In this document: positions 12,249 through 56,812 of the stretch, in pieces | Layout: every line of letters begins with the position of its first letter | Numbering within the stretch: the first letter of the stretch is position 1 | Virus record (IMG/VR): IMGVR_UViG_3300021379_002051 | Coordinates: 1 to 58,233 of that record | Strand: one strand, 5' to 3' | DNA from: a virus | Length of the DNA: 58,233 nucleotides | Translations under genes and position numbers: made by a program | The notes under the pieces: model-generated | Database searches by the model: none | The model's input: the letters and a program-made list of their open reading frames with translations, nothing else | Told to the model about the DNA's origin: nothing

Positions 12249-15200
12249 TTATTTGAACTGCTGAGGAATAACTATGGAACCTTCATTAGCCACCCCAAGA
12301 TCACCAAAGGCTTTTCTAATAGCGTTATTTACTATACTTTCAGCTGCTTCTGTTAAATTATTAGCCCCTGTTAAGTTAACCTGTACATTACCAGTAAATT
12401 GTATTTGTTCCGGTAGATTTATACTTGCTAAATTAGATACGATATTATTTACACTTCTGGTAAAAGAACTAATAGCATTAACAAAAGATTCAGAATTTTC
12501 TAATATATTAACACCACTCAAGACGCCAGATAATGTTTTGGCTCCTTCAGTTATTGCGGAAGAAATGGCTGTTTTGGCGTCGTTTATAGATTTTTGTTCT
12601 ATTTTTAGTGGAACAGGTTTCATAACCGCATTGCCGCCAGATACCATGCCAGCATCTTGATAATATTTAGGCTGAACTATGCCTCCTGTTGCAAATCTCT
12701 GGATAGCCTGACTAGATGATAGCCCACTACTTCCAGCGTTATTAATAGCCTTTAGCAAGGGTAGGTGCTTTTGTGTGGACTGTCTATTTATAACAAATTC
12801 ACCAGGAGTGAGCATTGCTGGGACAGTATCTGTGCCTTGAGGTTGGAAATTAACTAACGTTCCGTTAGAAGCATAAATTAATCCACCTCTTGCTTTGGTT
12901 TGTACTTCTTGCTCTTTTTGCCTTTGGGCTCTAGCTGCTTTGATTTGCTGTAATTTTTCATTGTCTGGTATAAGTCCTAGAACTCCGTTAGTAAGAAGTA
13001 ATAAATATTGATTCGCTGTTTTAAGAGCCGCATCTTCAGCAGCTGGCGACTGCGCAGCATTAGTTTCGTCTAAAAGAAAATTGTCTTGCTTAGCTAGGTA
13101 GGATCCAACATTTTTAACAGCTTCTGCAGCATTCATAAATCTAGCCTGCATTAAAGTATTAACTAAATTATCTGTAAAAGCCTGCCTTACCCCAGACGGT
13201 AAAACATTGTACGGATTCAATACTAATTTACCTACACTCTTCAAATCTTTGGGAGCTTGAGCCTCGCTAGCTTGAGAGCTGGTAAAACTACCAGTAGCTG
13301 CGTCTACTTCTGCTAATTCTACCTTGCCACTCTTGAATATATCAGCTATGGACTGTCCGTTTATTTTATAGTTTTGATCAACTGGTTGATTTAATGCTGT
13401 GGCATCTCCACCCAAAGACAAAGCACCTTGTTGTGTGAGGAATTGACCATATTTTTGTATAGCCATAGTCATCGAAGCTGCATCTTTCAAGACGGGTGGC
13501 GTTTCACCATCGCTCATAGTAGCTGGGAGACCCAGTTTGCTCAAGACCTCTTGTTTTTTATTTTGAGATATCAAGCTGAATATTTCACCCAAAGCTTTTA
13601 ACTGTCCAAATATAATTGCAGGCATATCTGTAGCACTTCTAGCCCTAGACCCAATATAATCAGCACCTTGGGATACATATTCAGCAAATGCTCCTAGTCC
13701 ATCAATACTACCTATGTTTGGCAAGCGGCCGCCCATAGCTACAATATTTCTAGCATATGGTATAACAACACCCCTAACAATATCTTGAATAACACCAAGA
13801 TCTAACCAATCTTGACCTTTTGTTTTAGGATCTATCGTGGCTGATTTTCCGGTAATAGCTTCTCCACCAACTTGACTTAGATATCTTTCTTTGAGTTTAA
13901 TTAAGCTATCTTGTAATAAAGTGTTTCCTTCTAGTGGTATTTTTTCCTTCGCATTTTTAGCTATAACTGGATCCAGGTTAATTGCTGCAATATCTGGGTT
14001 TATGCCTTTTAATTCCATTAGACCTGTGATACCAGGTTCATTCGCAAATATATTGTTTTCTTTATCATAGGCTGCAGCAAGAGCGTCGTAATAGCTTCTA
14101 AATTTCTCTTGTGCCGCAGCGAGATCTTTAAAATAAAGGGTTTTTCCGGCGAGGGCGGTACCGTCAAAAGGATTCAGGGTTGTATCATAGTTCATTCCAT
14201 CAGAGATCATAACTCCTTTTAATGAATCTCCAACTCCGCTGTATTTATTGGCCTGGGTATAAGAAGGCATCTCAAACTCTTGGGCGTTAAATGCTCCAGT
14301 GATATTTTTTGATCCTAGACCAGGACCTATATCTGCAAAAACACTAGTCAAATCGAAAGACTGTAATTGTTTTTCTCCTATCTTAAAACCTGCAGGTAAT
14401 TCTGCAGCTGTCTCTTTTTGTGTTCTGTCTTCTCCAGCAAAATATTTGCTCACAAAATTTGCTGCTAGTTTAGCTCCTGACCATAGATAACTAGTACCTC
14501 CAACACGGGCACCGTCACCATAGGCGCCAATAGCATCAGCATCTCTTTTTTGTTGAGCATCAAATTTACCTATTGTCTCGTTCCATTTATCACGAATACC
14601 CTCAATAAATAATGCAAGGCTGTCTCCTTTTGTTTTGCTTTTCCACTCTTTATTTAGATTATCAGTCCCGATAGTTGTATAAACACTACCTAAAGAACCA
14701 CTCTCTAAATTCTTTAGCCGATTACCAAGATTAGTATTGGCTGCTTTAGACGTGCTAATACTGTCAAAAAAACCAGGATCTCCAGCATAACTATCTAATG
14801 TAGATTTTATACTCTCTACATCATTTTGAGCAGTGAGTATCTGCTGCGTTAATTTCGCCGGATCTTGATATCCCGTTGTATCGGGACTGGTAATAGTTTG
14901 GGGACCAATCCCAACATGTCCAGGAATTCTAACTTTATTTCCAAAAAAGGTAGAATCTCCAGAATTAACTTCTCCAAAAGTATTGACTTTTGTAGTGCCG
15001 TTGGTTGGTGTTGGCTGATTGCCTTGTAGTTGAGGTAATACGACTAACCCATCATATTGATCTCTATCATTTAGTCTACCAAACGGACCATACCCTCCAG
15101 ATTTGGTATAAAAAGGAATCTTACCATTTCCTGGCTGTAAAAATTTTACATTATTAGCAGGTACCAAATCATTGGTTTTTTTAACAAACTGTAAAGAATT

Positions 15201-18200
15201 TAATTTCTTAGAAATCGCCTGGTATTTATTAATAGCGGCTTCAGCAAGGGATTTCTGACCTTGTATAGAGTAATAAGGCATAGCCAGGTCAGGAGAAGTA
15301 CCAGGATATCCTTCAGGCCCAACCCTTTGTATTTTATCATCATAATACAGATCTGTAGCGCCTGGTGAGATTTGTGGAACAGTACCATCGGTGTTTATAG
15401 GTATACCACCACCAAGATTATCAAATCCTTGTGAGCTAGGTAATGGTTGTTGAGTCTTCCACTTTGGAACTTTATCTCCTCCAGTAAACAATCCAGCCTC
15501 TTGTAAGCTAGCTTGTGTAAAAGGAGGATCACCAATTTTCCAGCCAATAAGAGCCGGCGCAGGACTACCCAACAAATTCATTTGTTCATTTTTTAAAACC
15601 TTCTCAACATCTTCCTGACTACTACTCTTAGAAACCCGTTTCAAGAAATGTGCGGTATAATCAAAATTGCCACCATAAACAGGCACATAATTCCCTTTAG
15701 ATCCAAATATCGCACCTTCACTCAATTCGTCAAATATTTTAGGATTAATATAAGGAATCGGGGATCTACTAACATTCTGCCTATCCTGATCATCCTCATT
15801 CTCTTTAGCCCAATTGGTCTTGTACCCACCAACTGTTCCACCCTCAGCATAATAACTAACGTCCCCACCCTTGCTTTTATTTATAGACTGTAATAAAGGA
15901 AGATGCTTTTGTGTAGAAGCTTTATTGACAACAAACTCTCCGGGTGTAAGCATAGCAGGTACAGTGTCAGTACCTTTAGGTTTAAATATCGTATTAACAT
16001 TTCCTCCATCAGCTTTGTAAATCAAACCTCCGGTGGCTATACCGACAGCAGGAACTGGCGCAGGTTGATCCGCACCAGGATTGTTGATACCTGAGATCAG
16101 ATCCGTAATTTGTTTATCGTCAAAACGCACCACACTATTTTTAATAGCTGCTTCTATACCTTTTTGAGTTTGATTAGCGATATCGTTAGCTAAGTTATTA
16201 TTAATATTGGCCAATTCGACATTTGCTTCTGATTGTTTTTGTATAGCGTCTTGGTATGTCTTTATCGCTTCTGCTTGCACAGGATCAGCTTGAGGATTGC
16301 GCATAGTATCCAATATTTGCTGAAACATTGGTGTTACACCAACTCCGCTCTGTTGCAGCATGCTCTGCAGAACATTGGCTTTTAATGGTTCAGCCTGATC
16401 GCCAAGCAAAGGAGCAATCATATTGAATAATTCCAAGTCCTGGCCTCTTTGCTCGGATGTTGTTCCAAAATTAGCAACACCAGACATATTTCTACTTAGC
16501 CTGAGAGCTGATTGGTTAAGTTCATTAAGTTGTTTAGGAGTACTAGTCACGAGCTTTTCTATGATACCAATACCAGCTCTCTGTTTTTGTTGAGCTTGTT
16601 CTATCTGTCCCAATGCGGCTGATGCTAAATCTGTATTTTCTGCCATATCTTTTAAAGCCATTACATTTTCATTAAGACTGACAGAAGTTTGCTTGATTTG
16701 TTTTTCAAACTCTTGAACGGTCCCCACATCACCAGCAGCTTGAGCAGCAGCTTTACCTGATTCTAAATTGGTTTTTTGATCAGAAAGATTGGTAATATTG
16801 CGTCTAATCTGAGCAGGGTCCGTTGATCCGCCTGTTCGACTGGTAATCTTGCTTTCTATGGCATATCTTTTTTGTGCTAGAGAAGTATTTCTACCTAAAG
16901 CTTGAGATAAAGCATTATAGCCATTAATAACTATCTGTTGAGCATTCAATGCTCTGTTGTTAGAATCTATCTGTAAACCAATCAATTCGTTGGTACTAGC
17001 AGAAAGTTGCTCAAAAGTACTTTGTAAAAATTTTAATCTATTTTCTACAGATTGACTAGCAGTTTTAAACGACTCTAAAGCTTGGCCAACAGCAGGAACC
17101 TTTTCTACGATTTCAGAAAAGTCTATATTATCATCGCCTTCTTTTCTTAAGGTCGCAACCTGTCTACCTATTTCTGCAGACAGTTTCTCTGAAAGACCAG
17201 GAGGTAATCCTATATTTTTCAATTGCTGTTTAACAGCAGAACTAACATCGGCACCCGTTTTTTCTTCTGTGGTACCATCAGCAGAATTAGCCACAGCATT
17301 ATTAACAGCTCCTAATATAGTATCTTCCAGCGTCGCCCCTATTTCTAAAACTTTACTTATAGAATCTGAAGAACTACCGAATCCAGCTGTAGCTTGGCTG
17401 AAAGAACTCTGCCTTTCTTGAGCAGAAAAGGCTCTTGGTGTGGAAATCACATCAAGTAATTGCTGTATCCCTGTAGACGAACCAGAGGTTGCTTGTCCCT
17501 GCATATTAGCTATGTTTTCTTGCATAGCAGAGTCCAACTGTCCTAAAGTGCTTACAGATCTAGCAATAGCCTCGTCCATATTCGCCATAATTCTACTAAA
17601 TGAATAGCTTAATTTCTTGGTAGCGTTGTCTAAATCTTTTAAGGCTAATTCAACATTGACTTGCTTGGCTTTTTCTAATGCTACTCTTTGTGACTCTAAA
17701 GCTATAATATTATCTTTAAGTGCTTTCTTTTGTCCCTCACCCAATCTTGTATCAGACTCTATAAGGACTATTTGCTTTTCTATAGCCTGATTCTGTCTAG
17801 CAAGCGCCTCTGCATTCTGATCAAAAGCAGCAGAATCCATAATGTCGCTTAAAGATTCACCTTCTTTTAATCTTGCAACCAGAACATCTTCGAATTGTTT
17901 GGCCGATTGTGCATATACGTTGGAGCTTTCTTTTGCAATTTTTGGCGCAAGCTCCGACATATATTTTAATTCTTTTGTGGTATCTCCAAGCACTGCAAGA
18001 TATGCCAGTGTGCCCTTTTCTTGTAAAATAATAGATCTGTTTGCTGCTCCTTGTTGTCCTCCTCCAAAATCTCCACCACCTCCCATCACGCCTTCTGTAA
18101 GGGTCTGTAATATGCTAGCTCTTTGAGTCTGTACTCCCATGTTCTTAGCTGCTTCTTGAGCGGCGGCTGCAGATGCTGCTAATGCTTTGTCGAGATTGTC

Positions 18201-21200
18201 AAGTTCATCAGACAATGGGTCTCCGCTTTTTGCTAGTTTCTCTAGGGTGTTTTTTACAGTTTCTGAACCTTCTTCTATTTTATCTTTAGCAGATTCTATT
18301 TTAAATTTTCTAGAAGCTTCTGAGGCATCAACGAAAGCTTTTCCTACAGCTAGAGCAGCTGATACAGCAGTTGTCACACCAGCGCCAAATCTTAATAATC
18401 TACCCTTAGTTCCTTTAACATTTTTTGTAAGATCTCGCAGCTCGCTACCAACAAGAGTTACGACCCCAAGATTAGTAGCAAGGCCATTGGTAAAAGATTG
18501 ATTGGCTGCTTCAGAGGCGGTAGTTGCTTCTCTATTGCCATTAATCGCCGTAGATAATAACGGTAAACCGACAGCAACACTAGTAGCTAAACTAGATAAT
18601 CTATCTAACGAAGATTGGGTTTTTGTTACATCTATATCCGGTGATTGTGCTGGAACCATGGTGGTCCCTCCAGCTCTGCCAGAACGAGTAGCTGATGGCG
18701 AACCACGCATAGCTGCGCTCACAGCGGGACTCCATGCTGTAGCTGCACCGCTGTCAACAGCTTCTCTAGAGGCCGCAGCTCTTTCGGCAGCGGTAGCTCC
18801 ACCTCCAACAGATGCGCCTTCTGGAACAAAGCCCCCAGCAACACCTCTTGCAAAGCTGGCGTTACTAGTTTTTACCTGACTTTGAACAGCAGCTGCAAGA
18901 GCAGCATCAGCGGCTGATGAGTCCGGAGGTTTTGCTCTAGAAAATCTACTTGCTAATCCAGTCAACGCCCCCGTTGCTCCGCTTATAGCTCCAGTAAGAC
19001 TAGTCCAGCTGGATGATAATTTTTGTGTTATAGTTAAGCGTTTCTTTGCAGCTGCAGTTTCTTGCTCTATGCCCTTTATTAGTTTCTTTATGTATTTTTG
19101 TTCCTCTGCGTATCCTAAGCCGCTATCCCTTATACTCTTTATTCGTGCGGCTATCTCTGTGTTAATTCTGGTCTGGGCTGCTGCACCTCTTTTGTGGGCT
19201 GCATGGTTTCTTTGTAATTCAGCAGATAGGTCGCCAGAAAATACAGTTACCTGACGTATAGAAGCATCAGCATTGGCTATATTGTCAGCCTTTAATTGAC
19301 CACTAAATCTTTCTAATGCTCCTATAAAAAATTCAGAAGCCCTTGTGATTTTACCACTAATACCGTCCAAGCCTAATGAACCAACCCTATCGTTTGATTT
19401 TGGCTTGCCTCCCCCTGCCATTTTTTGTACTCTGCCACCACTATGGTATTTATTAAGTTTTTCTAAATTACCATAACCTATAGACCTAGCAGAATTTCTG
19501 TTGATGACATATTCGCCTTCTTGAGCAAGAATGGGTACCTCTCCTCCATAGGCCATGCTTGCCTGCTTTCTCTGTCTATATGACCATCCTTTACCACTTT
19601 TTTCAAAGCCTAGTTTTGAAATCGCACTAGCGCTATTTTTAACTGACAGTCTTTGCGCTAATGCAGAGCCGGAATGTACTCCTGTTTTTAGATCTGCTGG
19701 TATGTCTCTTGTTGGTCCTTCCACCCCTTGTTGCTTCGTAGAGTCTGTTCTTTCATTCATTCTTTGTTGAATGGCAGCTTGCACCTTGGAAAAATCTTCG
19801 ATTGCTAATTGGTTAGAAATTTTCTTTTTAAACTCTGAGGGTTGTGTAGAATTTATACCTTTCTTAGCATCTACATACTTAATCTTTTCATCTATGGCGA
19901 AAAGGCCAGTATCGCCACGCTTCACTAATCTACCCAAACCATTAGTAAAGTCAAATGGTCTTTTATCTTCGCTTGCTGCAGAAGCTATGGGCTCGCCAGC
20001 TAACCCCTGTATCATTTGTTCGAACATAGAACCAACTTGACCGCCAGGAATACTAAAGTCTTCTGCAAATTCTACATTGGACACTGAAACATTAGCACTG
20101 CGTCCCCATGCTTTAGCAGAATTTTCTATCGCTTCTTTAGTATATTTTTGAATAGCGCTATTGAAAGCCTCATTTTGTCCCTCTCCAACACCAGCGACTT
20201 CTGTATTGTATGTTTTAGTTTTTGATCCACCAAGAACAGTCCTTGAAATAATACCTTCTATATCTTTTAATGGTAGTTTACTAGCGGAACCAATCTGAAT
20301 TTTGTTGCCTGTTGGTGCTGCATATAACTTGGCAATGCTACCAGAAGCAAGTGGGGAAACTTGGGGATTGGCAAACGCGACGTCCTTAGCAGAAATTGGT
20401 ACTTTCCCTAATTTATTATCCAAAATCTCTGATATAACCATACCAGCTTTAACTTCTCCACCAATGTCAAACTTTTGTACAAATTGAACATTACCAAACT
20501 TTTTATATAAGTTACTATCAATTTGAGTTGGGGCTTTCATAGTGCCCTTAAGCTGACCTATAGATCTAGTATCAGGCAAGCCAGACGACTCAGCATCAAC
20601 AATTCTTTGTTGTCTTTGACTCATAACCTGTTCTGAAGAAGGCTGTAAAGCAATTACCTGAGCAGCCCCAGACATTAAAGATTGAGCTTCTGTGCTAAAA
20701 TCTCCGGTTTTGGTAGCACCAGCACCACTTAATACAGCAAATCTAGCATATTTCTCTATATCAGCAGCAGAACGTATAAAATTTTTACCAAATTTCCTAG
20801 TAGCAAAAGTTGTTTTTCCAGAACCAGCAGGACCACTTATTACGCTATACGGCTTGCCAGAACTTCTAATAGCGTTAAGAATCTGTTTACTACCAGCACC
20901 AATCATGTCACTATCAAAAACACCAACACCCCCGACCTGCTTGCCTTGTTGTGTTTTTTTTGTCTGACCTCCGTCTGCAAACTTTTGCCTACCGCTAGCA
21001 ATATCACTAATAGTTTTATCGCCTAGAGCGTTGGTAGCATCAGTCCTAATAACATAACTCTTTGCTGGAATTTGAGTATAAAAACTATCGGCTCTACCAG
21101 TTCCAGGAACTTTTGCCAAGCCTCCTTTTGCCATTTTGTCTGCTTTATTCATCCTGTTTAAGGTGCCAACGCCTATTTTCTTAACAACTTCAGGAGAAAC

Positions 21201-22826
21201 AACAGTTTCACCAGGCATTAGCGCAACGTCAACTAGGCCTCCTGCTGCATACTTAGTAACAAGTCCTCCACTAGCTTTACCTTTTAATTCTTTACCAAAA
21301 CCTTTGGCAAAACCGAATCCTGCTCTTAAGCCTTTGCCGGCCAAAAGAACACCAAGCACAGGAAGTACGCCTTTCACACTATCAGCTATTTGTATCAATG
21401 CGCTTGCAAGATCTAATGCACTCTTGGTAATAGCTTTAAAGCTATCAGTACCTCCTATCTCTCTAATGAGACCAAGAAACTCTTCCCTAACCTTGGATAT
21501 TTGATTAGACAATGATAGTTGAGCAGTGGCCGCGTCCTCTGCTAACGAACCCTGACCGGCTTGAGCAACAGCAAGTGCTTTTTGTGCGGTTGCAAATTGT
21601 TGTATTAAAGGAATAACCTTACCAATCTGTCTGAAACCGCCAAGCTCTTCAACAAGTGTAGAAAATTTAACATCTCTGGGATCTAATTGATTTAACCCCT
21701 GGGAAAGTAATTGAATTGCTTTATAGGCTCCAACAAATTTACCATCTACATCTGTTAATGTGATACCAAACTCTTTAAGAGCTTCAATGGTAGAACCTCT
21801 TTGGATTCTGGTAAAAATAGTTCTCAAACCAGTAGCAATAGTTTCTGCGCTTTCACGAGTAGTAGCTCTGACGCTAGTAAAAACAGCAACAAATTCATTT
21901 AAAGCGTCTGTGCCTTCACTGACTCCACGACTAGCAGCGGCAAATACACCACCAGTACGCTGAATCGCAGCAATAATATCACCTGCTTCAACAGCAAAAC
22001 TAGCAGCTACGGCGTTGACGGAACCTAAGGCTTTTTCTAGATCGCCAGCAGAAATGCCAAACTGTCTCATTAACGCAATACTACCTTCGACAGTTCTGTT
22101 TAAGTCATCAAATGACGGAGCTAATGCACTAAGAGCCAAAGCCTTTAATGCCTTCTCTGTTTCTCTTGCAGACAAACCCGCTTGTGCTAATGTAGTAGAA
22201 ACAGAGATTAAATCGCTTGAAGCAACGCCAAGGCTTGTGGACAGATTAGTTATCTCGCTACTGATAGCTTTTAAACCATCAGCTGTTTTACCAGTTACCT
22301 GTTGTAGTCTTACTAATTGTCTATCGAACTCTATGAATTGTTTAAACGCTTGATTAATAGCATTAGTCAATGAAAAGACAGCGCTAGTTACCAAACTAAA
22401 AGCTGCAAATCTTTTGACAGCTAAAGCTGACTGTTTTCCGAAATCTTCCATCAGGGTAGTTGCTTTGGCCACTTGAGCGCCCGCCGCTTGTGCTTGTTTG
22501 CCGGTATTAGAAATATTTTGACTTACATTGGCGGTGCTAGAGGCAGCTTTAGTAGCTGCGGTGCTCATAGTATTAAATTGAGCAGCGATGCCTGATATGT
22601 TGGTGGAAACACTTTTGGAGGTTGCTTGTACTGATTTAAGAGTTTTGTTTAAACCAATAAGATTTCTGTTTATACTAGCTATATTTTTAGCACTATTAGG
22701 GTCTATAGTCAGGTTAACCGATGCCTTAACACCCTTAAGTTGTTTATTAATATTAGACACAACCTGTCTAACATTAGAAGGTCCCCTAAGATTTAGCTCA
22801 GCAGTTAGATTAAAGCCTTTGGCCAT
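12249..22826 (-). CDS. Tape measure protein with embedded P-loop and nuclease-like domains
   Basis: 3525 residues, the longest gene in the window, sited between the major tail/chaperone genes and the tail tip as expected for a tape measure. Residues 1-500 are Ala/Ser/Gln-rich and helical. A P-loop with GPAGSGKT lies near 660-675. At about 930-985, MFEQMIQGLAG...FDFTNG...AIDEKIKYVDAKKG resembles a PD-(D/E)XK nuclease core. Four copies of a Gly-rich segment with (P)GE(T/F/Y)VV(I)N/S occur near 525, 1105, 2300 and 3345. Two of them share TDTVPAMLTPGEFV. Coiled coil and hydrophobic stretches follow to 2200. It sets tail length and probably travels into the cell; the enzymatic roles are inference. 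Confidence 0.9.
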   Translation of the reverse strand: MAKGFNLTAELNLRGPSNVRQVVSNINKQLKGVKASVNLTIDPNSAKNIASINRNLIGLNKTLKSVQATSKSVSTNISGIAAQFNTMSTAATKAASSTANVSQNISNTGKQAQAAGAQVAKATTLMEDFGKQSALAVKRFAAFSLVTSAVFSLTNAINQAFKQFIEFDRQLVRLQQVTGKTADGLKAISSEITNLSTSLGVASSDLISVSTTLAQAGLSARETEKALKALALSALAPSFDDLNRTVEGSIALMRQFGISAGDLEKALGSVNAVAASFAVEAGDIIAAIQRTGGVFAAASRGVSEGTDALNEFVAVFTSVRATTRESAETIATGLRTIFTRIQRGSTIEALKEFGITLTDVDGKFVGAYKAIQLLSQGLNQLDPRDVKFSTLVEELGGFRQIGKVIPLIQQFATAQKALAVAQAGQGSLAEDAATAQLSLSNQISKVREEFLGLIREIGGTDSFKAITKSALDLASALIQIADSVKGVLPVLGVLLAGKGLRAGFGFAKGFGKELKGKASGGLVTKYAAGGLVDVALMPGETVVSPEVVKKIGVGTLNRMNKADKMAKGGLAKVPGTGRADSFYTQIPAKSYVIRTDATNALGDKTISDIASGRQKFADGGQTKKTQQGKQVGGVGVFDSDMIGAGSKQILNAIRSSGKPYSVISGPAGSGKTTFATRKFGKNFIRSAADIEKYARFAVLSGAGATKTGDFSTEAQSLMSGAAQVIALQPSSEQVMSQRQQRIVDAESSGLPDTRSIGQLKGTMKAPTQIDSNLYKKFGNVQFVQKFDIGGEVKAGMVISEILDNKLGKVPISAKDVAFANPQVSPLASGSIAKLYAAPTGNKIQIGSASKLPLKDIEGIISRTVLGGSKTKTYNTEVAGVGEGQNEAFNSAIQKYTKEAIENSAKAWGRSANVSVSNVEFAEDFSIPGGQVGSMFEQMIQGLAGEPIASAASEDKRPFDFTNGLGRLVKRGDTGLFAIDEKIKYVDAKKGINSTQPSEFKKKISNQLAIEDFSKVQAAIQQRMNERTDSTKQQGVEGPTRDIPADLKTGVHSGSALAQRLSVKNSASAISKLGFEKSGKGWSYRQRKQASMAYGGEVPILAQEGEYVINRNSARSIGYGNLEKLNKYHSGGRVQKMAGGGKPKSNDRVGSLGLDGISGKITRASEFFIGALERFSGQLKADNIANADASIRQVTVFSGDLSAELQRNHAAHKRGAAAQTRINTEIAARIKSIRDSGLGYAEEQKYIKKLIKGIEQETAAAKKRLTITQKLSSSWTSLTGAISGATGALTGLASRFSRAKPPDSSAADAALAAAVQSQVKTSNASFARGVAGGFVPEGASVGGGATAAERAAASREAVDSGAATAWSPAVSAAMRGSPSATRSGRAGGTTMVPAQSPDIDVTKTQSSLDRLSSLATSVAVGLPLLSTAINGNREATTASEAANQSFTNGLATNLGVVTLVGSELRDLTKNVKGTKGRLLRFGAGVTTAVSAALAVGKAFVDASEASRKFKIESAKDKIEEGSETVKNTLEKLAKSGDPLSDELDNLDKALAASAAAAQEAAKNMGVQTQRASILQTLTEGVMGGGGDFGGGQQGAANRSIILQEKGTLAYLAVLGDTTKELKYMSELAPKIAKESSNVYAQSAKQFEDVLVARLKEGESLSDIMDSAAFDQNAEALARQNQAIEKQIVLIESDTRLGEGQKKALKDNIIALESQRVALEKAKQVNVELALKDLDNATKKLSYSFSRIMANMDEAIARSVSTLGQLDSAMQENIANMQGQATSGSSTGIQQLLDVISTPRAFSAQERQSSFSQATAGFGSSSDSISKVLEIGATLEDTILGAVNNAVANSADGTTEEKTGADVSSAVKQQLKNIGLPPGLSEKLSAEIGRQVATLRKEGDDNIDFSEIVEKVPAVGQALESFKTASQSVENRLKFLQSTFEQLSASTNELIGLQIDSNNRALNAQQIVINGYNALSQALGRNTSLAQKRYAIESKITSRTGGSTDPAQIRRNITNLSDQKTNLESGKAAAQAAGDVGTVQEFEKQIKQTSVSLNENVMALKDMAENTDLASAALGQIEQAQQKQRAGIGIIEKLVTSTPKQLNELNQSALRLSRNMSGVANFGTTSEQRGQDLELFNMIAPLLGDQAEPLKANVLQSMLQQSGVGVTPMFQQILDTMRNPQADPVQAEAIKTYQDAIQKQSEANVELANINNNLANDIANQTQKGIEAAIKNSVVRFDDKQITDLISGINNPGADQPAPVPAVGIATGGLIYKADGGNVNTIFKPKGTDTVPAMLTPGEFVVNKASTQKHLPLLQSINKSKGGDVSYYAEGGTVGGYKTNWAKENEDDQDRQNVSRSPIPYINPKIFDELSEGAIFGSKGNYVPVYGGNFDYTAHFLKRVSKSSSQEDVEKVLKNEQMNLLGSPAPALIGWKIGDPPFTQASLQEAGLFTGGDKVPKWKTQQPLPSSQGFDNLGGGIPINTDGTVPQISPGATDLYYDDKIQRVGPEGYPGTSPDLAMPYYSIQGQKSLAEAAINKYQAISKKLNSLQFVKKTNDLVPANNVKFLQPGNGKIPFYTKSGGYGPFGRLNDRDQYDGLVVLPQLQGNQPTPTNGTTKVNTFGEVNSGDSTFFGNKVRIPGHVGIGPQTITSPDTTGYQDPAKLTQQILTAQNDVESIKSTLDSYAGDPGFFDSISTSKAANTNLGNRLKNLESGSLGSVYTTIGTDNLNKEWKSKTKGDSLALFIEGIRDKWNETIGKFDAQQKRDADAIGAYGDGARVGGTSYLWSGAKLAANFVSKYFAGEDRTQKETAAELPAGFKIGEKQLQSFDLTSVFADIGPGLGSKNITGAFNAQEFEMPSYTQANKYSGVGDSLKGVMISDGMNYDTTLNPFDGTALAGKTLYFKDLAAAQEKFRSYYDALAAAYDKENNIFANEPGITGLMELKGINPDIAAINLDPVIAKNAKEKIPLEGNTLLQDSLIKLKERYLSQVGGEAITGKSATIDPKTKGQDWLDLGVIQDIVRGVVIPYARNIVAMGGRLPNIGSIDGLGAFAEYVSQGADYIGSRARSATDMPAIIFGQLKALGEIFSLISQNKKQEVLSKLGLPATMSDGETPPVLKDAASMTMAIQKYGQFLTQQGALSLGGDATALNQPVDQNYKINGQSIADIFKSGKVELAEVDAATGSFTSSQASEAQAPKDLKSVGKLVLNPYNVLPSGVRQAFTDNLVNTLMQARFMNAAEAVKNVGSYLAKQDNFLLDETNAAQSPAAEDAALKTANQYLLLLTNGVLGLIPDNEKLQQIKAARAQRQKEQEVQTKARGGLIYASNGTLVNFQPQGTDTVPAMLTPGEFVINRQSTQKHLPLLKAINNAGSSGLSSSQAIQRFATGGIVQPKYYQDAGMVSGGNAVMKPVPLKIEQKSINDAKTAISSAITEGAKTLSGVLSGVNILENSESFVNAISSFTRSVNNIVSNLASINLPEQIQFTGNVQVNLTGANNLTEAAESIVNNAIRKAFGDLGVANEGSIVIPQQFK

Positions 22827-43375: not shown

Positions 43376-43383
43376 TATACACT
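43376..43383 (-). promoter_or_regulatory. Putative phage late promoter, AGTGTATA
   Basis: AGTGTATAGC on the minus strand, overlapping the stop codon of the large terminase by two bases and 41 nt before the portal ATG. Confidence 0.5.
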
Positions 43384-45406
43384 ATTTTCTGTATACCCCG
43401 CCATAAATATTATCTTCATTAACGGCGGATGTAAACCATGCTGGCCCTTTATACATCTCACCTTTATGAGATACCATATTTCTAGTATCGCCTCCTACAA
43501 CATCATATTCGACCGAAGGCATACTATTTCTGATTTGTCTCGCTAGCATATTAGCTATAACTAGAGAACTATATCGGTCTTTTCTTAGTCTTCCTTTTTT
43601 ACCGTTTTCTAACTTCACTTCTGGGGTGTCCCATCTGTCTCTAGCATTAGGACCATTACTAGTTTGAGACATGACTATTGTGGTAAGTTCATTTTTAAGC
43701 TCTTCTATTTCCAGTATGCAAGTTGTCAATGTGTCGTGTAAGAGATCTACATCATCTACCTCAACATTTTGTCCACTTTCTGCCATAGATAAACCTATGC
43801 TAAGATTATCAAAAAACGGAAATAATAATAATTTGTCCTCTAAATCTTTTCTTAGTCCATGATTAGCCTGAGATGTCCAGTCAGCTTTGGCAAATTGCAC
43901 TAAATCTAAAATATGTAAACCTGCTTGATTATCGGAATCTCTACTTTTACCATCTTCTATAGATGGCCACAGCGGTAATTCTCCTTCTTGTATCTTTGAA
44001 GGATCATGTAAAGCTTCTTCGATAGCAATGCCTCCTCCCTGTGCATCCATACCTATTCTTACAGGAGGAAATATTTTCATCAGATCACGAATTTTTCTAG
44101 CGCAGAATCCGTAAAAATCATGATCGTTAGTAATACCGACTTTATTTCTCACTCTAAAGTTTGCTCTATTTGTTGTCCAACAATATACTATGCGAGAATG
44201 ATCGGGATGACACTCTAATATGACAATACTAAAATTATCTTTCTCTGAAGCTGGGTCAATGCCGTATATGTATTCTAGTTTAGGATCACCTTTAATTTTT
44301 GCCTCAAACCATATATCTCGACCATTAATTTGAATAGTATTATTGTTAGATATAACACAGCTTTCTATCAAACTTCTTTTGAAAAAACCACGGCTGTCAT
44401 TTACAAAACATGCAGCATATTCCATGTTATATATTCCAGAATGTATAGTAGCTTTGGCTCTTGCAACCTGTTTGTCATCCATAAAACCTTTGGGTATTAA
44501 TTCATAAGGAACCCTGATTACTGAATAATCTTTCCAGTTAAAATTTTCAGGAACCTCTCCCTTAAAGATCTTAGACAGTTTAGTGTGATCTCCACCACTC
44601 TCAATAATGGATTTATATCTATTCCAATACTGTGCGAAGTGTTTAAAACCATAATCAGCAGTACCGCTAATAATGGCTTGATTACCATTTTTCTTGGATA
44701 AAATATCTAATTCCTCTGTCCACAAACCAGCATCAATCAATGCCTGTCTTTTAGCCTGTGCTTTTACATTTTCTATAGGGCTTGCACTAACAGCAGCAAA
44801 ACCCGCTACTACAGTTTCGTAGATTTCGGGAGACATAGATGCAAATTCATCGGCTATGATTATATGGGCTCTAAGGCCTCTAATTTTACTACCATCGCCC
44901 ATTGGGATAGCTATAGTCCAACTGTCTCCCAATCTTAAAGTACATCTGTCCACATCTCTTCTTGGACCATCTTCATTGCCGCTAAAAATACTTCTTAATA
45001 TAGGACTATTACGCCAAATATTTTCCATATACTCAAAAAGAATTTTACTCTGTCTGAACCCGGCACCAACCACCACGATTTTAGTGCCGGGAACAAATGA
45101 GCACTTCAATATGCAATATAAGCTCATCAAAAAAGATTTACCAAAACCACGACTAGCTATAAACATAGGAAAAGGTCTGTGCCAAAACTCTTGTAATATA
45201 GCCACTTGTATAGGATGTAATTCTATACCAAATAGCATTTTACAAGTTGCACCCAGATATTCTGTTTGCCTCATAATTTTTAACAAATGCTTATCTGGAT
45301 GCTCTATGTCATCTTTGGACCTATTTACCATCAGATTTTTCTTTATATCTAATGTAGATAAGTCTCCAAGTCCTAACCAAGCATTTTCATATATCAAATT
45401 AGCCAT
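43382..45406 (-). CDS. terL: Terminase large subunit
   Basis: 674 residues. ATPase domain: Walker A SRGFGKS at 85-91, Walker B IIIADE at 182-187, and a coupling motif near GTADYG 248-253. Nuclease domain: GIDPASEKD at 382-390, IGMDAQGGG at 451-459 and a further acidic motif with DLLHD near 555, which form the metal site of the RNase H fold. The enzyme packages DNA into the prohead with the portal. It overlaps the 45399 gene by 8 bp. Full length for the family. The phylogenetic type (and so packaging mode) cannot be judged without alignment. Confidence 0.95.
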   Translation of the reverse strand: MANLIYENAWLGLGDLSTLDIKKNLMVNRSKDDIEHPDKHLLKIMRQTEYLGATCKMLFGIELHPIQVAILQEFWHRPFPMFIASRGFGKSFLMSLYCILKCSFVPGTKIVVVGAGFRQSKILFEYMENIWRNSPILRSIFSGNEDGPRRDVDRCTLRLGDSWTIAIPMGDGSKIRGLRAHIIIADEFASMSPEIYETVVAGFAAVSASPIENVKAQAKRQALIDAGLWTEELDILSKKNGNQAIISGTADYGFKHFAQYWNRYKSIIESGGDHTKLSKIFKGEVPENFNWKDYSVIRVPYELIPKGFMDDKQVARAKATIHSGIYNMEYAACFVNDSRGFFKRSLIESCVISNNNTIQINGRDIWFEAKIKGDPKLEYIYGIDPASEKDNFSIVILECHPDHSRIVYCWTTNRANFRVRNKVGITNDHDFYGFCARKIRDLMKIFPPVRIGMDAQGGGIAIEEALHDPSKIQEGELPLWPSIEDGKSRDSDNQAGLHILDLVQFAKADWTSQANHGLRKDLEDKLLLFPFFDNLSIGLSMAESGQNVEVDDVDLLHDTLTTCILEIEELKNELTTIVMSQTSNGPNARDRWDTPEVKLENGKKGRLRKDRYSSLVIANMLARQIRNSMPSVEYDVVGGDTRNMVSHKGEMYKGPAWFTSAVNEDNIYGGVYRK

Positions 45407-46480: not shown

Positions 46481-46748
46481 TATTCTTTTTGTTATTAATG
46501 GCTATTTTTTTAAAGACACTCTCATAATAGGTTTCTTGTCCAGAAATCATCTTATGATGTAAGTTACATAATGTAATACCATTATCCTCATTATATCTTA
46601 AACCTGGATTATCACACCATCTATGTATATGATGTACATTTAACTTGCTTTTTTTATTACACCCAATCCACTGACATCTGTGCCTATCTCTGGCTAAAAC
46701 TTTCTGCCTAAATTTTTTATACGCTGGATCACTATAGTCTCTCTTCAT
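46470..46748 (-). CDS. HNH endonuclease
   Basis: 92 residues with a full small HNH: C25-x4-C30, HH at 39-40, an N near 57, and C61-x2-H64. The N-terminal RQKVLARDRHRCQW is the common HNH lead. Small HNH proteins sit next to terminase in many siphoviruses and help cleavage and packaging. It overlaps the dehydratase gene by 17 bp. Alternative: a homing nuclease; the compact size and place favour a packaging role. Confidence 0.8.
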   Translation of the reverse strand: MKRDYSDPAYKKFRQKVLARDRHRCQWIGCNKKSKLNVHHIHRWCDNPGLRYNEDNGITLCNLHHKMISGQETYYESVFKKIAINNKKNNDK

Positions 46749-47727
46749 AGTATTTGATATCCGATTTTACCATTTCAGAAACAAGTTGATTGAAACTAAT
46801 ACTAGGGGACCATCCTAGTTTTCTCTTAGCCTTGCTACAATCACCCAACAAAAAATCTACCTCTGCGGGTCTATAGAGACTAGGATCAATTTCAAGGTAA
46901 TCCTTATAATTTAGATCGATTTCATTAAAAGCTAGTTCTAAAAATTCTTGTACGCTATGTGTGCTACCTGTGGCTATTACATAATCATCTGGATATTCTT
47001 GATTAAGCATCATTCTCATAGCTTCGACATAATCTCTAGCATGCCCCCAATCACGATAACTATAAATATTACCTAGTTTCAGCTTATCCTCAGTTAGTCC
47101 ATTAATCAACCTACCCAAATATTTAGTAATTTTTCTGGTAACAAAATTCTCCCCTCTTTTAGGACTCTCGTGATTAAATAATATTCCACTACAAGCATAT
47201 AGACCGTAGCTCTCTCTGTATAATTTTACCATTTGATGAGAAGCAACTTTAGATACAGCATATGGACTTTGGGGGCTGAAATCTGTAGATTCATCTTGAT
47301 ATTTTTCTTTTTCCGTAGAAGAACTATAATTAGAACCAAACATTTCGCTAGTGCTAGCTTGATAAAATCTAGTTTTAGGTGAAACACTTCTAATAATCTC
47401 AAGGATAGATACTACGCCATGAGTATTTATATTAAAGGTATTGATAGGTTGATCAAAACTAGTCCCGACATGGCTCTGGGCAGCTAAATTATAGAATTCA
47501 TCCGGTAAATATTGCGTGATAATTCTATGTAAGGAAGAGTAGTCTGTCAAATCAAATTCTTGCAAATTCAACATAGGATGTTTTATATGTTTTTCAATTC
47601 TCCAAAAATTATTGGTACTATTTCTTCTATATAAACCAATAACATTGTATCCTCTAGACAGTAAAGAACTCATTAAATAGCTGCCATCTTGTCCTGTAAT
47701 ACCAGTAATAATAGCTGTTTTATTCAT
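46732..47727 (-). CDS. gmd: GDP-mannose 4,6-dehydratase
   Basis: 331 residues, a full-length extended short-chain dehydrogenase. The NADP-binding TGITGQDG lies at 8-15, with DLTDYSS, YNLAAQSHV, the STSEMFG catalytic Ser/Thr region near 124 and the YAVSK Tyr-Lys at about 155-159. LFNHESPKRGE, RDWGHARDYVEAM and RPAEVDFLLGD follow, all typical of Gmd. It converts GDP-mannose to GDP-4-keto-6-deoxymannose, precursor of GDP-fucose, rhamnose and perosamine. It lies between packaging genes, which is unusual. No epimerase/reductase partner (fucose synthase) is seen in the window. Confidence 0.92.
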   Translation of the reverse strand: MNKTAIITGITGQDGSYLMSSLLSRGYNVIGLYRRNSTNNFWRIEKHIKHPMLNLQEFDLTDYSSLHRIITQYLPDEFYNLAAQSHVGTSFDQPINTFNINTHGVVSILEIIRSVSPKTRFYQASTSEMFGSNYSSSTEKEKYQDESTDFSPQSPYAVSKVASHQMVKLYRESYGLYACSGILFNHESPKRGENFVTRKITKYLGRLINGLTEDKLKLGNIYSYRDWGHARDYVEAMRMMLNQEYPDDYVIATGSTHSVQEFLELAFNEIDLNYKDYLEIDPSLYRPAEVDFLLGDCSKAKRKLGWSPSISFNQLVSEMVKSDIKYYEERL

Positions 47728-49319: not shown

Positions 49320-49347
49320 TTGCCTTTTGTTAAGGTTCTACTATAAT
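49320..49347 (+). promoter_or_regulatory. Sigma-70-like promoter for the HTTM operon
   Basis: TTGCCT (49320-49325), a 16-base spacer, TATAAT (49342-49347), 44 bp before the ATG at 49392. It abuts the minus-strand late motif. Confidence 0.5.
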
Positions 49348-49391: not shown

Positions 49392-49595
49392 ATGAAATAT
49401 AAAAAATGGAATAATCAAGAACTAGATTTCATCAAAAATAATTTTACAGTTATGTCTGATGCTGATCTGGCTCAAAGACTAAGCAAAGAAAATGAAAAAA
49501 TTACTGTATATATGATTAGAAGACAGCGCAGAAGTATACAGGCTAATAAAAAAAGAGGAAGACCCAGAAAAACAAATAACAATGATAATCAATGA
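49392..49595 (+). CDS. Small HTH / AT-hook-like DNA-binding protein
   Basis: 67 residues, very basic. Residues 1-40 (KWNNQELDFIKNNFTVMSDADLAQRLSKE) look like a short helix-turn-helix, and the end GRPRK is an AT-hook. The N-terminus resembles that of the small terminase candidate (EEQDYIKQNFNKLSIDQIADHLNR). It may regulate the divergent junction, or bind DNA generally. First gene of the plus-strand operon, with the next gene overlapping by 14 bp. Confidence 0.6.
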   Translation: MKYKKWNNQELDFIKNNFTVMSDADLAQRLSKENEKITVYMIRRQRRSIQANKKRGRPRKTNNNDNQ

Positions 49596-50106
49596 TTTGA
49601 TATCTATTTTTCAGTACTGTCTGATAATTTTTGCATTCATATCCATAATAATGATTATGATTTATAGCAATGCTTATTATTATACAATAATGTCCTATAT
49701 ATATCAACACAGCATATTCAACACTATCAATAATGGTCTACAATTCAGTCATGCCTGGAACCATTTTGGAGGACCGTCTATGCCGTTCGACGTATCAATA
49801 AAAGCTATTATTTATCAGGATGAAAAGAGATACGAGATTGTTTTATATGATCCTGCCACAAACACGACTTGGCAAAATAAAAAAATCAATGTGCTAGATG
49901 CTAAGTGGTTTGAATATGTGAAAAACGGTAATCAAGATGCAGTGAAAGCATTATATAATTATTTACAAAGACTGTATCGTACTGATCGCATACAAATACA
50001 GGCACACTTTCAGCCAATGAAAGGTTTTCATGCTATAAATTACCAACATCAAGGTTTTGTACATGATATAAATATACAACAAGAAGGTGGTCAAGACGCT
50101 CATTAA
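49582..50106 (+). CDS. Membrane-anchored protein, HTTM-associated (DUF5819-like?)
   Basis: 174 residues. One transmembrane helix at about 5-28 (IFQYCLIIFAFISIIMIMIY) precedes an extracytoplasmic beta-rich domain with FSHAWNHFGGPSMPFDVSIKAIIYQ, then RYEIVLYDPATNTTWQ and AKWFEYVKNG. The W-x-HFGGP feature is like the WNMFAP of DUF5819-type proteins found beside HTTM genes in bacteria. I infer the relationship; it is weak. It overlaps the 49392 gene and lies 28 bp before the HTTM gene, as expected of a three-gene cassette. Confidence 0.5.
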   Translation: MIINDLISIFQYCLIIFAFISIIMIMIYSNAYYYTIMSYIYQHSIFNTINNGLQFSHAWNHFGGPSMPFDVSIKAIIYQDEKRYEIVLYDPATNTTWQNKKINVLDAKWFEYVKNGNQDAVKALYNYLQRLYRTDRIQIQAHFQPMKGFHAINYQHQGFVHDINIQQEGGQDAH

Positions 50107-50134
50107 CCAGCAGCCATAGAAGGAAACACCGTGG

Positions 50135-51034
50135 ATGTTTGAGATAAACGATATTTATGATTTGTTGCTACTACTAGTAGATAACACAAAATATTTTTTA
50201 TTTGAGCCAACTATGTCTACTACTACAGGACTGGCTAGAATCATGATAGCCATTGCAAATATAATATTACTTATGGAATATCGTGATAGAACAGATAGGT
50301 ATCTTAGTACAGCTAGTGTTGCTACATTTCCTAAAGTACATATAAAATATGTAGATTTGCTTGTGTGGGATAGATGGAATAACTGTAATGCTAATAGTTT
50401 TATTATATTTGGTATTTTATGTAGTATAAGTTTCATGGTTGGTTTTTGCTCTAATATATGCGCCCTGTTATTGTATATAGTATCTTTGTCTACGTATAGT
50501 AGAAACTATCTGATAGAAAACGCAGGTCACTGTCAAATGAGAGCAATGCTGCTGCTCATGATATTTAGTAGATGTGGAGATGCTTTATCACTGGACACAA
50601 TAATACAAAATAAAAATTTTATAGGATCTATGGGAGAACCTTGGTGTGATAGATTTATGCAAGTTTTTATAGCGCTAATGTACTATAAAACTATTACATA
50701 TAAAATGATTAGTGGACCATCCTGGTGGAAAGGAGAAGTATTAAGCTATGCTCTTAACTCATTAGAGTTCGGTAAATATTCTCAACATTTTACATTTCCC
50801 AGATGGTTATGTATTATGGGATCATACTATACAATAGCTACACAAAACGCCCTAGTGTATCTAATATGGTTTAAAGAATTTAGGTATTATGTGTTGATCA
50901 ACTCTATGCTACATCATGCTATGATGCTTATGCTTATGAAACTAGGAGCTTTTCCTATTGTTGCTATTAGTTGCTTGAGTGTTTTTGTTCCTTCAGATGA
51001 TCTGGCTAAATTTTTATCTAGATTTATACAATGA
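50135..51034 (+). CDS. HTTM domain (vitamin K-dependent gamma-carboxylase-like) membrane protein
   Basis: 299 residues with about six membrane segments, for example TGLARIMIAIANIILLM, FIIFGILCSISFMVGFCSNICALLLYIVSL, and MLLLMIFSRCGDALSLD. HTTM hallmarks are the opening GLARI, the conserved R/SLD element near 165, PWWK..., and a final LHHAMMLMLMKLGAFP...SCLSVF. HTTM proteins are named for homology to vertebrate gamma-glutamyl carboxylase; the bacterial role is mostly unknown. It overlaps the DCC gene (ATGA), a pairing known from bacterial genomes. The start ATG at 50135 follows AAGGA at 10 bases. Confidence 0.8.
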   Translation: MFEINDIYDLLLLLVDNTKYFLFEPTMSTTTGLARIMIAIANIILLMEYRDRTDRYLSTASVATFPKVHIKYVDLLVWDRWNNCNANSFIIFGILCSISFMVGFCSNICALLLYIVSLSTYSRNYLIENAGHCQMRAMLLLMIFSRCGDALSLDTIIQNKNFIGSMGEPWCDRFMQVFIALMYYKTITYKMISGPSWWKGEVLSYALNSLEFGKYSQHFTFPRWLCIMGSYYTIATQNALVYLIWFKEFRYYVLINSMLHHAMMLMLMKLGAFPIVAISCLSVFVPSDDLAKFLSRFIQ

Positions 51035-51300
51035 TAGTGATACTAGACGGATATTGTAAATTTTGCAGAAGGGTGGGCGAATATATGGGGAAATTTACGA
51101 AAATTGGTGATCTAACCGTATTGTATAGTGATATGGAAGATGCTAGGGGCTTAATGTATAAGTATGGTATGGGGGATAGTATTGATAATATAGTGGGAAT
51201 AGTGGGAAACTATAAGGTTGTAGAGGGTGTTTATTGTTGGATTGTAGAATTAATTAAAAGGAGATTGTGGGATGGGAAGAAGAATAGGAAGCAAGGATAA
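51031..51300 (+). CDS. DCC-family thiol-oxidoreductase-like protein
   Basis: 89 residues, starting MIVILDGYCKFCRRVGEYMG: the DGxCxFC motif at 6-12 is the hallmark of DCC (DUF393) proteins, named for Asp-Cys-Cys, which have a thioredoxin-like fold. Later: LTVLYSDMEDARGLMYKYGMGDSIDNIVGIV, the typical helix and strand, though short of the usual 120-130 residues, so it is a minimal version. It is coupled to the HTTM gene by a 4-bp overlap. Predicted redox partner or thiol donor for the HTTM protein; unproven. Confidence 0.75.
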   Translation: MIVILDGYCKFCRRVGEYMGKFTKIGDLTVLYSDMEDARGLMYKYGMGDSIDNIVGIVGNYKVVEGVYCWIVELIKRRLWDGKKNRKQG

Positions 51301-52354
51301 GAAATCAAGGAAAAAGAAGGTGTTTGTTGATTCTGCACAGGAAAGACAAATTGTGTGTGACTATAATAATGGTATGAGTTCTGCAGACATAAGAAGTAAG
51401 TATGGGATTAGTAATAGTCAGTTGAGCAGAATAAGGGGGGATAGAGGGGTAAAGGTCAAACTAAGAAGAGATATTGTTGATAGTTGGGAGGTAGTAGGGG
51501 ATTTTAAAGACTATAAGGAAACTAGTGGTATATATGCTATATATTTTATCTGGAATTATGATAAAGAAGATCCTGATAAAAACCATAAAATCAATAATAT
51601 AAAAGCTTATATAGGTAGTAGTGTCAATATAGGACAAAGATTAATGGCTCATGATAATGAGTTAAAAAATAATAAGCATTTTAATAAAAATCTGCAGGAT
51701 AGATATAATGATTGTGAATTTTCTGTAAGGTATGCCATAATAGAAGAATGTGGTGAAGATGAGATTATGCAGAAGGAAGGGGGCTATCTTGATAGGTGGA
51801 ATATGGGGTGTCTTTTTAATACGTGGAAGGTTATTAAAAAAGAAGATATAGAGCCGTGGCTAGAAAAAGCTATAACCATGGATGCTTATGATAAAAACTA
51901 TACTATTAGCAAAACGAACTTCTATAATGGAACTGCTTGTAAAGAAACGAATAATGTGCATAAAAGCGGATATGGAAGAATGCAAACAACTATTGAAGGA
52001 GTTACGAAATATCTAGCAAAACATAGAGTAGCATACTGGCATAAGCATGGAGAATATGTTGAGTTGGTGAGACATATGTGTGATAATCCGAAATGTTTTA
52101 ATCCTGAGCATTTAGCAGCAGGGAATCATAGACAGAATAATTTGGATAGGCGAGGCGATTTTCCTGAAGAATTTGAAAGGAAATGGCTGGAGTGTAAAGG
52201 AGATGTGATAAAATTAACAGAAGAATTTGGATGGAAGGCTAACGCTAAACTAAAAGACGGAGGTGTAAGCTGTAGTGTTTATGAATGGGAGAAGAAGCTA
52301 GACTTAAGGAATAAGTATCCTGAAATCGTTAAGAACAGGGGCCTATTAAGATAG
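51272..52354 (+). CDS. Dual-domain GIY-YIG and HNH endonuclease
   Basis: 360 residues. An N-terminal helix-turn-helix (YNNGMSSADIRSKYGISNSQLSRI, 31-54) is followed by a GIY-YIG core: SGIYAIYF at 85-92, AYIGSSVNIGQRL at 112-124 with the key Arg123, and an E near 169. At 235-290 is an HNH/recombination-endonuclease type zinc finger with RHMCDNPKCFNPEHLAAGNHRQNN: H268, C270, C275, N277 and H280. Two nuclease folds in one protein is uncommon and suggests a homing endonuclease built from modules. It overlaps the DCC gene by 29 bp and a terminator follows. Confidence 0.8.
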   Translation: MGRRIGSKDKKSRKKKVFVDSAQERQIVCDYNNGMSSADIRSKYGISNSQLSRIRGDRGVKVKLRRDIVDSWEVVGDFKDYKETSGIYAIYFIWNYDKEDPDKNHKINNIKAYIGSSVNIGQRLMAHDNELKNNKHFNKNLQDRYNDCEFSVRYAIIEECGEDEIMQKEGGYLDRWNMGCLFNTWKVIKKEDIEPWLEKAITMDAYDKNYTISKTNFYNGTACKETNNVHKSGYGRMQTTIEGVTKYLAKHRVAYWHKHGEYVELVRHMCDNPKCFNPEHLAAGNHRQNNLDRRGDFPEEFERKWLECKGDVIKLTEEFGWKANAKLKDGGVSCSVYEWEKKLDLRNKYPEIVKNRGLLR

Positions 52355-52395
52355 TTTAGGTAATACTTTTTTATTTATATGTCCCTACTGTAATT

Positions 52396-52415
52396 GCACC
52401 CCGGTGCGTTTTTTA
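52396..52415 (+). terminator. Intrinsic terminator after the endonuclease gene
   Basis: GCACC pairs with GGTGC around a very small loop, followed by G and six T. It ends the HTTM operon. Confidence 0.7.
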
Positions 52416-53652: not shown

Positions 53653-53856
53653 ATGAAAACGATTGAAATTTCACCACGTTACGTTGACTATCAAAACTAC
53701 TTCCACGAGATGAGTGACGAGTTGCTCGCAGTGTGGATTGAAGTTGCAGAGCGTAGGCTTCCTACCTATCGTCGGAAGTCTGACTTGGTGTCCGTTGCTT
53801 TGGGTATCCGTGCTGCTAAAAGTGTTCAGCGTTTACGAGAAAGGAATTGGGAATGA
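53653..53856 (+). CDS. Small early protein, 67 residues
   Basis: Start MKTIEISPRYVDYQ at 53653, in a purine-rich leader. A GTG at 53590 would lie inside the hairpin and is rejected. Contains YQNYFHEMSDELLAVWIEVAERR, an acidic/aromatic helix, and ends basic. The stop overlaps the next start (ATGA at 53853-53856). Unrecognised. Confidence 0.65.
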   Translation: MKTIEISPRYVDYQNYFHEMSDELLAVWIEVAERRLPTYRRKSDLVSVALGIRAAKSVQRLRERNWE

Positions 53857-53927
53857 TCGTCTTGACCGTTGCTGTTTCGTTTGCTATACTGTTCTGCGGG
53901 TTCGCCGCCCTCTATCTCACCCTATAA
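53853..53927 (+). CDS. Micro-protein, one membrane helix, 24 residues
   Basis: ATG overlaps the preceding TGA (ATGA). It is almost entirely hydrophobic: a single transmembrane helix with LTVAVSFAILFCGFAALYLTL. Its translation would be coupled. AAGGA for the following gene lies at its stop. Short membrane peptides of this kind are common in phage early regions. Alternative: a leader peptide for the next gene. Confidence 0.5.
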   Translation: MIVLTVAVSFAILFCGFAALYLTL

Positions 53928-53938
53928 GGAAAACCACA

Positions 53939-56550: not shown

Positions 56551-56733
56551 ATGAAAACTAAACTTTACCATTCGGAAACTGTACCGCCTTCACACAAGGA
56601 ATGCCCAACGGGTTACTGTAGAACAGAAAACGGGTTTTGGACTTATTCAAGAAGAGCGGCTCGTGATTATCGCTTCTTTCGTCTGAATGGTGGTTGGATG
56701 TTTGTGGATATGAGGAAGCAAGATGAAAAGTAA
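56551..56733 (+). CDS. Small early protein, 60 residues
   Basis: Start MKTKLYHSETVPPSHKE at 56551 after GGAG. CPTGYCRTENGFWTYSRRAARDYRF with a C-x4-C pair, then RLNGGWMFVD as in the preceding protein. The shared motif is also close at DNA level. Overlaps the next small gene by 11 bp. Unrecognised. Confidence 0.6.
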   Translation: MKTKLYHSETVPPSHKECPTGYCRTENGFWTYSRRAARDYRFFRLNGGWMFVDMRKQDEK

Positions 56734-56812
56734 ACTTGACAATGACGGCCTGGCCGTTATACTGTTTCTTATGGTGTGTGTTGTGGTAATATTTATGGAA
56801 AGATTAGGGTAA
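56723..56812 (+). CDS. Micro-protein, one membrane helix, 29 residues
   Basis: Start at 56723, overlapping the preceding stop. Sequence has MKSKLDNDG then a hydrophobic AVILFLMVCVVVIFM helix and MERLG. A single-pass membrane peptide. It ends at TAA 56810-56812, just before a C/G hairpin and GGCCGGCC. Confidence 0.5.
   Translation: MKSKLDNDGLAVILFLMVCVVVIFMERLG

Follow-up and report, generated by a model that had tools for sequence, protein, structure and literature searches.

In a hypervariable slot for accessory cargo, bordered by conserved flanks, an uncultured bacterial virus has a three-gene unit of bacterial type: a gene for a polytopic HTTM membrane protein, preceded by the gene for a probable membrane-anchored partner (ORF1) and followed by a short gene whose product may be DCC-like. 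No three-gene bacterial HTTM unit of this kind was present in the cultured phages searched here. The virus is represented by the IMG/VR record IMGVR_UViG_3300021379_002051, and its whole stretch of 58,233 bases is referred to below as the window.

The structural and packaging genes of the window are encoded on the leftward strand (large terminase, 43382-45406; tape-measure-like protein, 12249-22826). Right of 49.3 kb the direction of transcription is rightward, into a part of the window that has small ORFs, a raised GC content and strong -35/-10-like sites. The number of promoter-like sites in this region is that expected by chance, and it is by its position that the candidate promoter listed in Table 1 is singled out. 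From 49392 to 52354 the neighbouring genes overlap or almost touch one another. Indeed, the 4-bp overlap between the HTTM stop codon and the start of the DCC-like ORF that had been noticed earlier is present (ATGA), and the endonuclease gene overlaps the 3' end of the DCC-like gene by 29 bp. These overlaps and near-contacts, in combination with a promoter-like site on the 5' side and a terminator-like hairpin on the 3' side, suggest that the five genes are probably transcribed as one unit. The three cassette ORFs themselves were found at the positions given in the earlier note, which had interpreted them as a bacterial unit captured whole. A chimeric contig, which that note had considered as an objection, can be ruled out at this point, since the genes on both flanks have homologues in related phages with their order conserved, and the gene junctions overlap.

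Table 1. The probable cargo operon of the window and the sites bordering it.
Feature	Position	Strand	Basis
Candidate sigma-70 promoter, TTGCCT-16-TATAAT	49320..49347	+	Consensus scan; divergent intergenic space before the cargo operon
Small DNA-binding-like protein with AT-hook motif, conserved	49392..49595	+	Pfam AT_hook, 17.6 bits; left border of the slot
ORF1, putative membrane-anchored partner protein of SdpA/DUF5819-like layout	49582..50106	+	TM 9-27; W-x-x-F...P; predicted beta/alpha domain
HTTM/SdpB-type polytopic membrane protein	50135..51034	+	Pfam HTTM; short-HTTM profile; GGCX alignment
DCC-like thiol-disulfide oxidoreductase (candidate), short, DGYCKFC intact	51031..51300	+	DCC profile built here
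Free-standing GIY-YIG + HNH endonuclease	51272..52354	+	Pfam GIY-YIG, HNH_3; PHROG HNH endonucleases
Intrinsic-terminator-like hairpin with T tail, 3' of the endonuclease gene	52395..52408	+	Sequence scan

Judged by its sequence, the central ORF encodes a genuine HTTM protein. The Pfam HTTM model (PF05090) aligned with it over positions 2-258 of 259 with an E-value of 4.6e-6, and the score of 26.8 bits (26.6 in a repeat) fell 0.9 bit short of the curated cut-off of 27.7 bits. With a profile built from 14 short HTTM/SdpB proteins of bacteria, the same ORF ranked first among the 455 ORFs in the window (96.3 bits, E-value 5.7e-29), the second-ranked ORF having an E-value of 0.07. The full-length Pfam match and the profile match thus confirm the HTTM identity assigned in the earlier note. 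The closest single matches were HTTM proteins of Vampirovibrionia, which were 29.6-32% identical to the phage protein along some 210 aa and had E-values near 2e-28 when 80 sequences were compared. In a phylogenetic tree, the phage protein was located within a supported clade of 34 rows, mostly from Vampirovibrionia, on a very long branch (2.74) that leaves the donor unsettled. Thirteen of the 17 residues that are invariant in nine bacterial homologues are retained, including K190, W197, G200 and H261, while at the remaining four positions the phage protein has N107, H132, S204 and Q237 instead of R, D, Y and E.

When the PDB was searched with a profile of ten HTTM proteins that included the one from the phage, human GGCX was matched with an E-value of 7e-22; phmmer searches of the PDB with the phage HTTM or the DCC-like protein singly gave nothing useful. 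The conserved lysine of the HTTM proteins aligns with the second K of VKKL in GGCX, and Lys190 of the phage protein takes the position of Lys218, which is catalytic in the human vitamin K carboxylase (PMC12589487). Whereas the HTTM fold and the Lys218 position are shared, the lumenal propeptide-binding part and the Glu-binding His160 belong to GGCX only: the alignment covers the transmembrane part, the phage protein of 299 aa is without the lumenal domain, and the His160 region is not conserved (NSGD in bacteria, NAGH in the phage protein). Gamma-carboxylation is not implied. The SdpB model TIGR04033 was matched by 7 of the 10 members of the alignment (best 6.8e-16), below the cut-off of the model, and the phage HTTM itself had no match in NCBIfam, TIGR04033 included. 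Because the ten-member profile matches GGCX and seven of its members match the SdpB model, we regard SdpB, the bacterial HTTM proteins and GGCX as one superfamily, in which one conserved lysine links the SdpB, bacterial and human proteins.

The 174-aa product of ORF1 has one strongly hydrophobic segment at its N-terminus, followed by the sequence HAWNHFGGP, which is in agreement with the membrane anchor and the W-x-HFGGP motif described in the earlier note. Its W-x-x-F...P motif is located where bacterial partner proteins carry W-x-x-F-A-P-x-P. ORF1 did not match any model of Pfam or NCBIfam, including those for SdpA (PF17418/TIGR04034) and DUF5819 (PF19136), and the DUF5819 match that had been anticipated for it was not obtained. 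A profile of 57 bacterial partners aligned with ORF1 from end to end at 8.7 bits, the best score in the window, which was reached by 6 of 4,000 shuffled sequences. Among five partner profiles of differing composition, this 57-sequence profile was the one that ranked ORF1 first in the window. Single-sequence AlphaFold2 models were poor (pLDDT 51 and 38), the one of ORF1 showing a helix, two strands, two helices and a strand. We regard ORF1 as a probable, weakly supported partner protein of the SdpA/DUF5819 type.

The weakest claim of the earlier note was that the third protein belongs to the DCC family, and it could be upheld in part. The DCC profile built here ranked this protein first of the 455 ORFs (14.3 bits, E 0.0012), its gene lies in the appropriate position, and a D-x-x-C-x-x-C motif follows a hydrophobic strand at its N-terminus (MIVILDGYCKFC). 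However, searches of Pfam, PHROG and NCBIfam gave no match, and the DCC1-like model (PF04134) was not seen even at E≤10 in a search of the phage's own genome. None of 5,000 full shuffles came near 14.3 bits (best 8.2), whereas 103 of 5,000 shuffles that kept the first 12 residues equalled or exceeded the real score; the evidence for a DCC protein therefore resides in the MIVILDGYCKFC start. The alignment with the profile ends near residue 37, with the evidence in the first 35 residues or so, and the C-terminal half of the domain is missing from the protein, which has 89 aa compared to the 113 positions of the family model. It may have been shortened by the overlap with the start of the endonuclease gene. 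Taken together, these data weakly support a DCC-like identity. A YuxK-like sequence served as the query for locating annotated DCC loci and for nothing else.

Since both ORF1 and the third ORF remain under the curated cut-offs of their families, and the profile score of ORF1 is marginal, it is conceivable that a captured HTTM gene happens to lie between two phage genes with which it has no relationship. We consider this improbable, as both have the size, the motif and the order expected from bacterial units, and the D-G-x-C-x-x-C type of N-terminus, which a single one of 124 ORFs in the window has, was not observed in any of the 2,921 ORFs from related phages.

These expectations derive from bacterial loci, in which short HTTM genes are nearly always positioned 3' of a gene for a membrane-anchored protein of 160-230 aa, usually with a short overlap. 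The partner proteins share the W-x-x-F-A-P-x-P motif or a variant of it, and belong to DUF5819 (a Macrococcus plasmid and the Bacteroidota locus L267), to SdpA (a Staphylococcus plasmid) or to unnamed relatives in Bacteroidota, Cyanobacteriota and Planctomycetota. The gene order is secreted peptide, DUF5819, HTTM and DCC on the Macrococcus bovicus plasmid pLI0213a (L082), and two small secreted peptides, DUF5819, HTTM and then DCC in L267. The Staphylococcus simulans plasmid (L085) has SdpA, SdpB, SdpC and DCC, followed by SdpI and SdpR, and in Rhodococcus the order is DCC, short protein, HTTM. Of the 246 planctomycetotal genomes, 74 matched the short-HTTM alignment; HTTM and DCC form one protein in 12 of 30 loci, and the partner gene is located upstream in 10 of those 12. 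The occurrence of partner-HTTM-DCC loci in Macrococcus, in L267 and, in fused form, in the Planctomycetota shows that the whole bacterial unit invoked in the earlier note is a real one. This part of the capture proposal is thus upheld, whereas the identities of the phage DCC and partner proteins are weakly supported.

Comparison with the individual bacterial systems revealed both likenesses and differences. The Macrococcus unit resembles the cassette in its three modules, in their order and in the overlaps between genes, but it is preceded on its 5' side by a small secreted peptide gene, its DCC protein has 125 aa instead of 89, and its partner is a DUF5819 protein, a family that ORF1 does not match. 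Like the phage cassette, SdpABC of Bacillus subtilis and the Staphylococcus operon have a W-x-x-F-containing anchored partner upstream of a membrane protein with the HTTM fold, and the latter operon also shares the DCC gene; unlike the cassette, the Sdp operons carry genes for the SdpC toxin and for SdpI/SdpR immunity. In the 12 planctomycetotal loci with a fused protein the module order is that of the phage, but HTTM and DCC are separate proteins in the phage, and the phage HTTM groups with Vampirovibrionia instead. The pairs in Vampirovibrionia (L316, L319, L325 and others) have the HTTM proteins closest to that of the phage and a partner gene directly upstream, often overlapping; unlike in the phage, no DCC gene adjoins them in the loci read. 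Many of the Vampirovibrionia genomes G978-G1067 have 3-9 short HTTM copies each, which frequently form clusters and have a partner gene next to them.

Processing of SdpC into SDP in Bacillus requires SdpA as well as SdpB (PMC6818787). By analogy, ORF1 and the HTTM protein might process a small peptide of phage or host, either secreted or membrane-bound, into an active membrane toxin or signal. This would be in line with the assignment of SdpB and the short HTTM proteins to one family, with the peptide genes next to the partner and HTTM genes of L267 and of the Macrococcus plasmid, and with the SdpC-like proteins of L268 and L085. However, neither a small peptide gene with a signal peptide nor SdpI or SdpR adjoins the phage cassette, the phage HTTM did not match NCBIfam, and the pairs of the nearest clade, the Vampirovibrionia, have no neighbouring peptide gene in those loci that were read. 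We therefore regard such a maturation function as quite unlikely. Action on an envelope or secreted protein is favoured instead, because the phage has no nearby precursor or immunity gene and the same holds for the Vampirovibrionia pairs.

The slot in which the cassette resides is well delimited by its neighbours. Homologues of the AT-hook gene occur at 54 loci of related phages, and right of the cassette both the endonuclease gene and the small genes likewise have homologues in relatives, the endonuclease being found in the same slot at six related loci. In all 44 relatives for which the slot after the AT-hook gene is covered, the cargo differs from the cassette and comprises GlmS-like (12), GNAT acetyltransferase (10), GDP-fucose-synthase-like (4) and subtilisin-like (4) genes as well as Val/Pro/Tyr-rich secreted proteins, glycosyl- or methyltransferase-like genes and GIY-YIG/HNH endonucleases; these classes were assigned by sequence signature, and two of the subtilisins were confirmed with Pfam. 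The three cassette genes were absent from all related phage loci compared, a set to which close kin do not belong because the sequences of the two phages most similar to this one (terminase identities of 98% and 90%) stop before the slot, and an HTTM gene was absent from all 50 relatives searched whole. Likewise, tblastn with five HTTM queries, within the limits of its sensitivity, found none in 50,697 INPHARED phage records. Bacterial HTTM alignments were also used to scan viral sequences two more times, again with no HTTM found, and direct searches of viral contigs, genome contigs, phages and plasmids returned no close relatives of the three proteins. The similar cassettes in related phages for which the earlier note had hoped were thus not encountered.

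This distribution could mean that the cassette is passenger DNA, which entered the slot when an endonuclease cut was repaired and is now decaying with no present benefit. Such a scenario would account for the absence of the cassette from the 44 relatives, for the adjacent and overlapping GIY-YIG/HNH gene, for the shortening of the DCC-like gene at this overlap, and for the codon usage of ORF1 and the DCC-like gene, which fits the phage less well than that of the core genes. On the other hand, all three frames are open and each overlaps or nearly touches its neighbours, the CxxC pair is intact, and the HTTM gene, which has kept most of the invariant residues, is as phage-like in its codon usage as the core genes (+0.33 bits/codon). 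On balance, we consider passenger DNA unlikely, though somewhat less so than peptide maturation.

Above both of these possibilities we place, tentatively, the view that a captured bacterial partner-HTTM-DCC module acts on an envelope or secreted protein of the host, the likely benefit being that competitors are excluded. The HTTM enzyme would activate a membrane hydroquinone via Lys190, as in the vitamin K carboxylase. ORF1, anchored beside it, would present or position the substrate at the membrane's outer face, as SdpA may do for SdpB, and the DCC-like protein would transfer electrons through its CxxC pair. The substrate would most likely be a protein or peptide that the host secretes or carries in its envelope. 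The outcome would be a host surface or membrane that is altered in infection so as to favour the phage over its competitors, an accessory 'moron' role. We infer the quinone chemistry, the substrate and the benefit entirely, and the DCC and partner identities in part; by analogy, the function of the cassette is probably a quinol-dependent modification or exclusion located in the envelope. The proposition that an SdpAB/GGCX-like quinol-driven system modifies a surface protein of host or phage, or matures a peptide, and thereby keeps competing phages or cells out, appears doubtful.

The view that a captured module acts on the host envelope is supported by the HTTM homology, the lysine alignment with GGCX, the existence of the bacterial units, the overlapping genes with their promoter- and terminator-like sites, the location in the slot and the other envelope-related cargo of the relatives. 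It is weakened by the unconserved His160 region, the four changed invariants, the first rank of ORF1 with a single partner profile, and the confinement of the DCC evidence to the N-terminal part of a protein that lacks the C-terminal one. HTTM-DCC-partner units are widespread in bacteria, and in the literature searched substrate and chemistry are known only for the SDP toxin system of Bacillus. The compact phage copy, which has no toxin gene and is found among swappable envelope-related cargo, represents a small natural system for testing the three core proteins, and suggests that altering the envelope via HTTM-type chemistry can benefit a virus.

Several further observations concern the relatives and the remainder of the window. 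The phage has a gene for GDP-mannose 4,6-dehydratase on the leftward strand (46732-47727), and a GDP-fucose-synthase-like gene occupies the slot in four relatives (L006, L020, L038 and L081); together, the two enzymes would make GDP-L-fucose. The subtilisin-like cargo of six loci (L031, L032, L039, L069, L072 and L080) starts with LEN(K/R)xLLS/T-like motifs, which are reminiscent of planctomycete secreted proteins. These 'LENRSLLT'-like starts and the Val/Pro/Tyr-rich secreted proteins of relatives are only a hint at a planctomycete host; the motif was not found in a small planctomycete sample, and a search of 99 planctomycete genomes with the phage terminase, run without a positive control, gave no match.

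The G over C skew of the coding strand is extreme in the DCC-like (+0.75) and endonuclease (+0.47) genes (51031-52354), and low in ORF1 (-0.01) and the HTTM gene (+0.16). Between 52500 and 58233, repeated intergenic blocks, in which GGCCGGCC sites and CCCC...GGGG hairpins occur together with promoter-like TTGACA sites, separate small early genes, some of which are also present in relatives. Two very short hydrophobic ORFs of about 24 and 29 aa on the rightward strand (53855-53929 and 56724-56812), which resemble single membrane spans, are located among these genes. Lastly, a presumed tail-region protein of 1,264 aa encoded on the leftward strand (8405-12199) contains a domain with the FGE-sulfatase (formylglycine-generating-enzyme-like) fold, a fold type that is frequently used as a variable binding domain.
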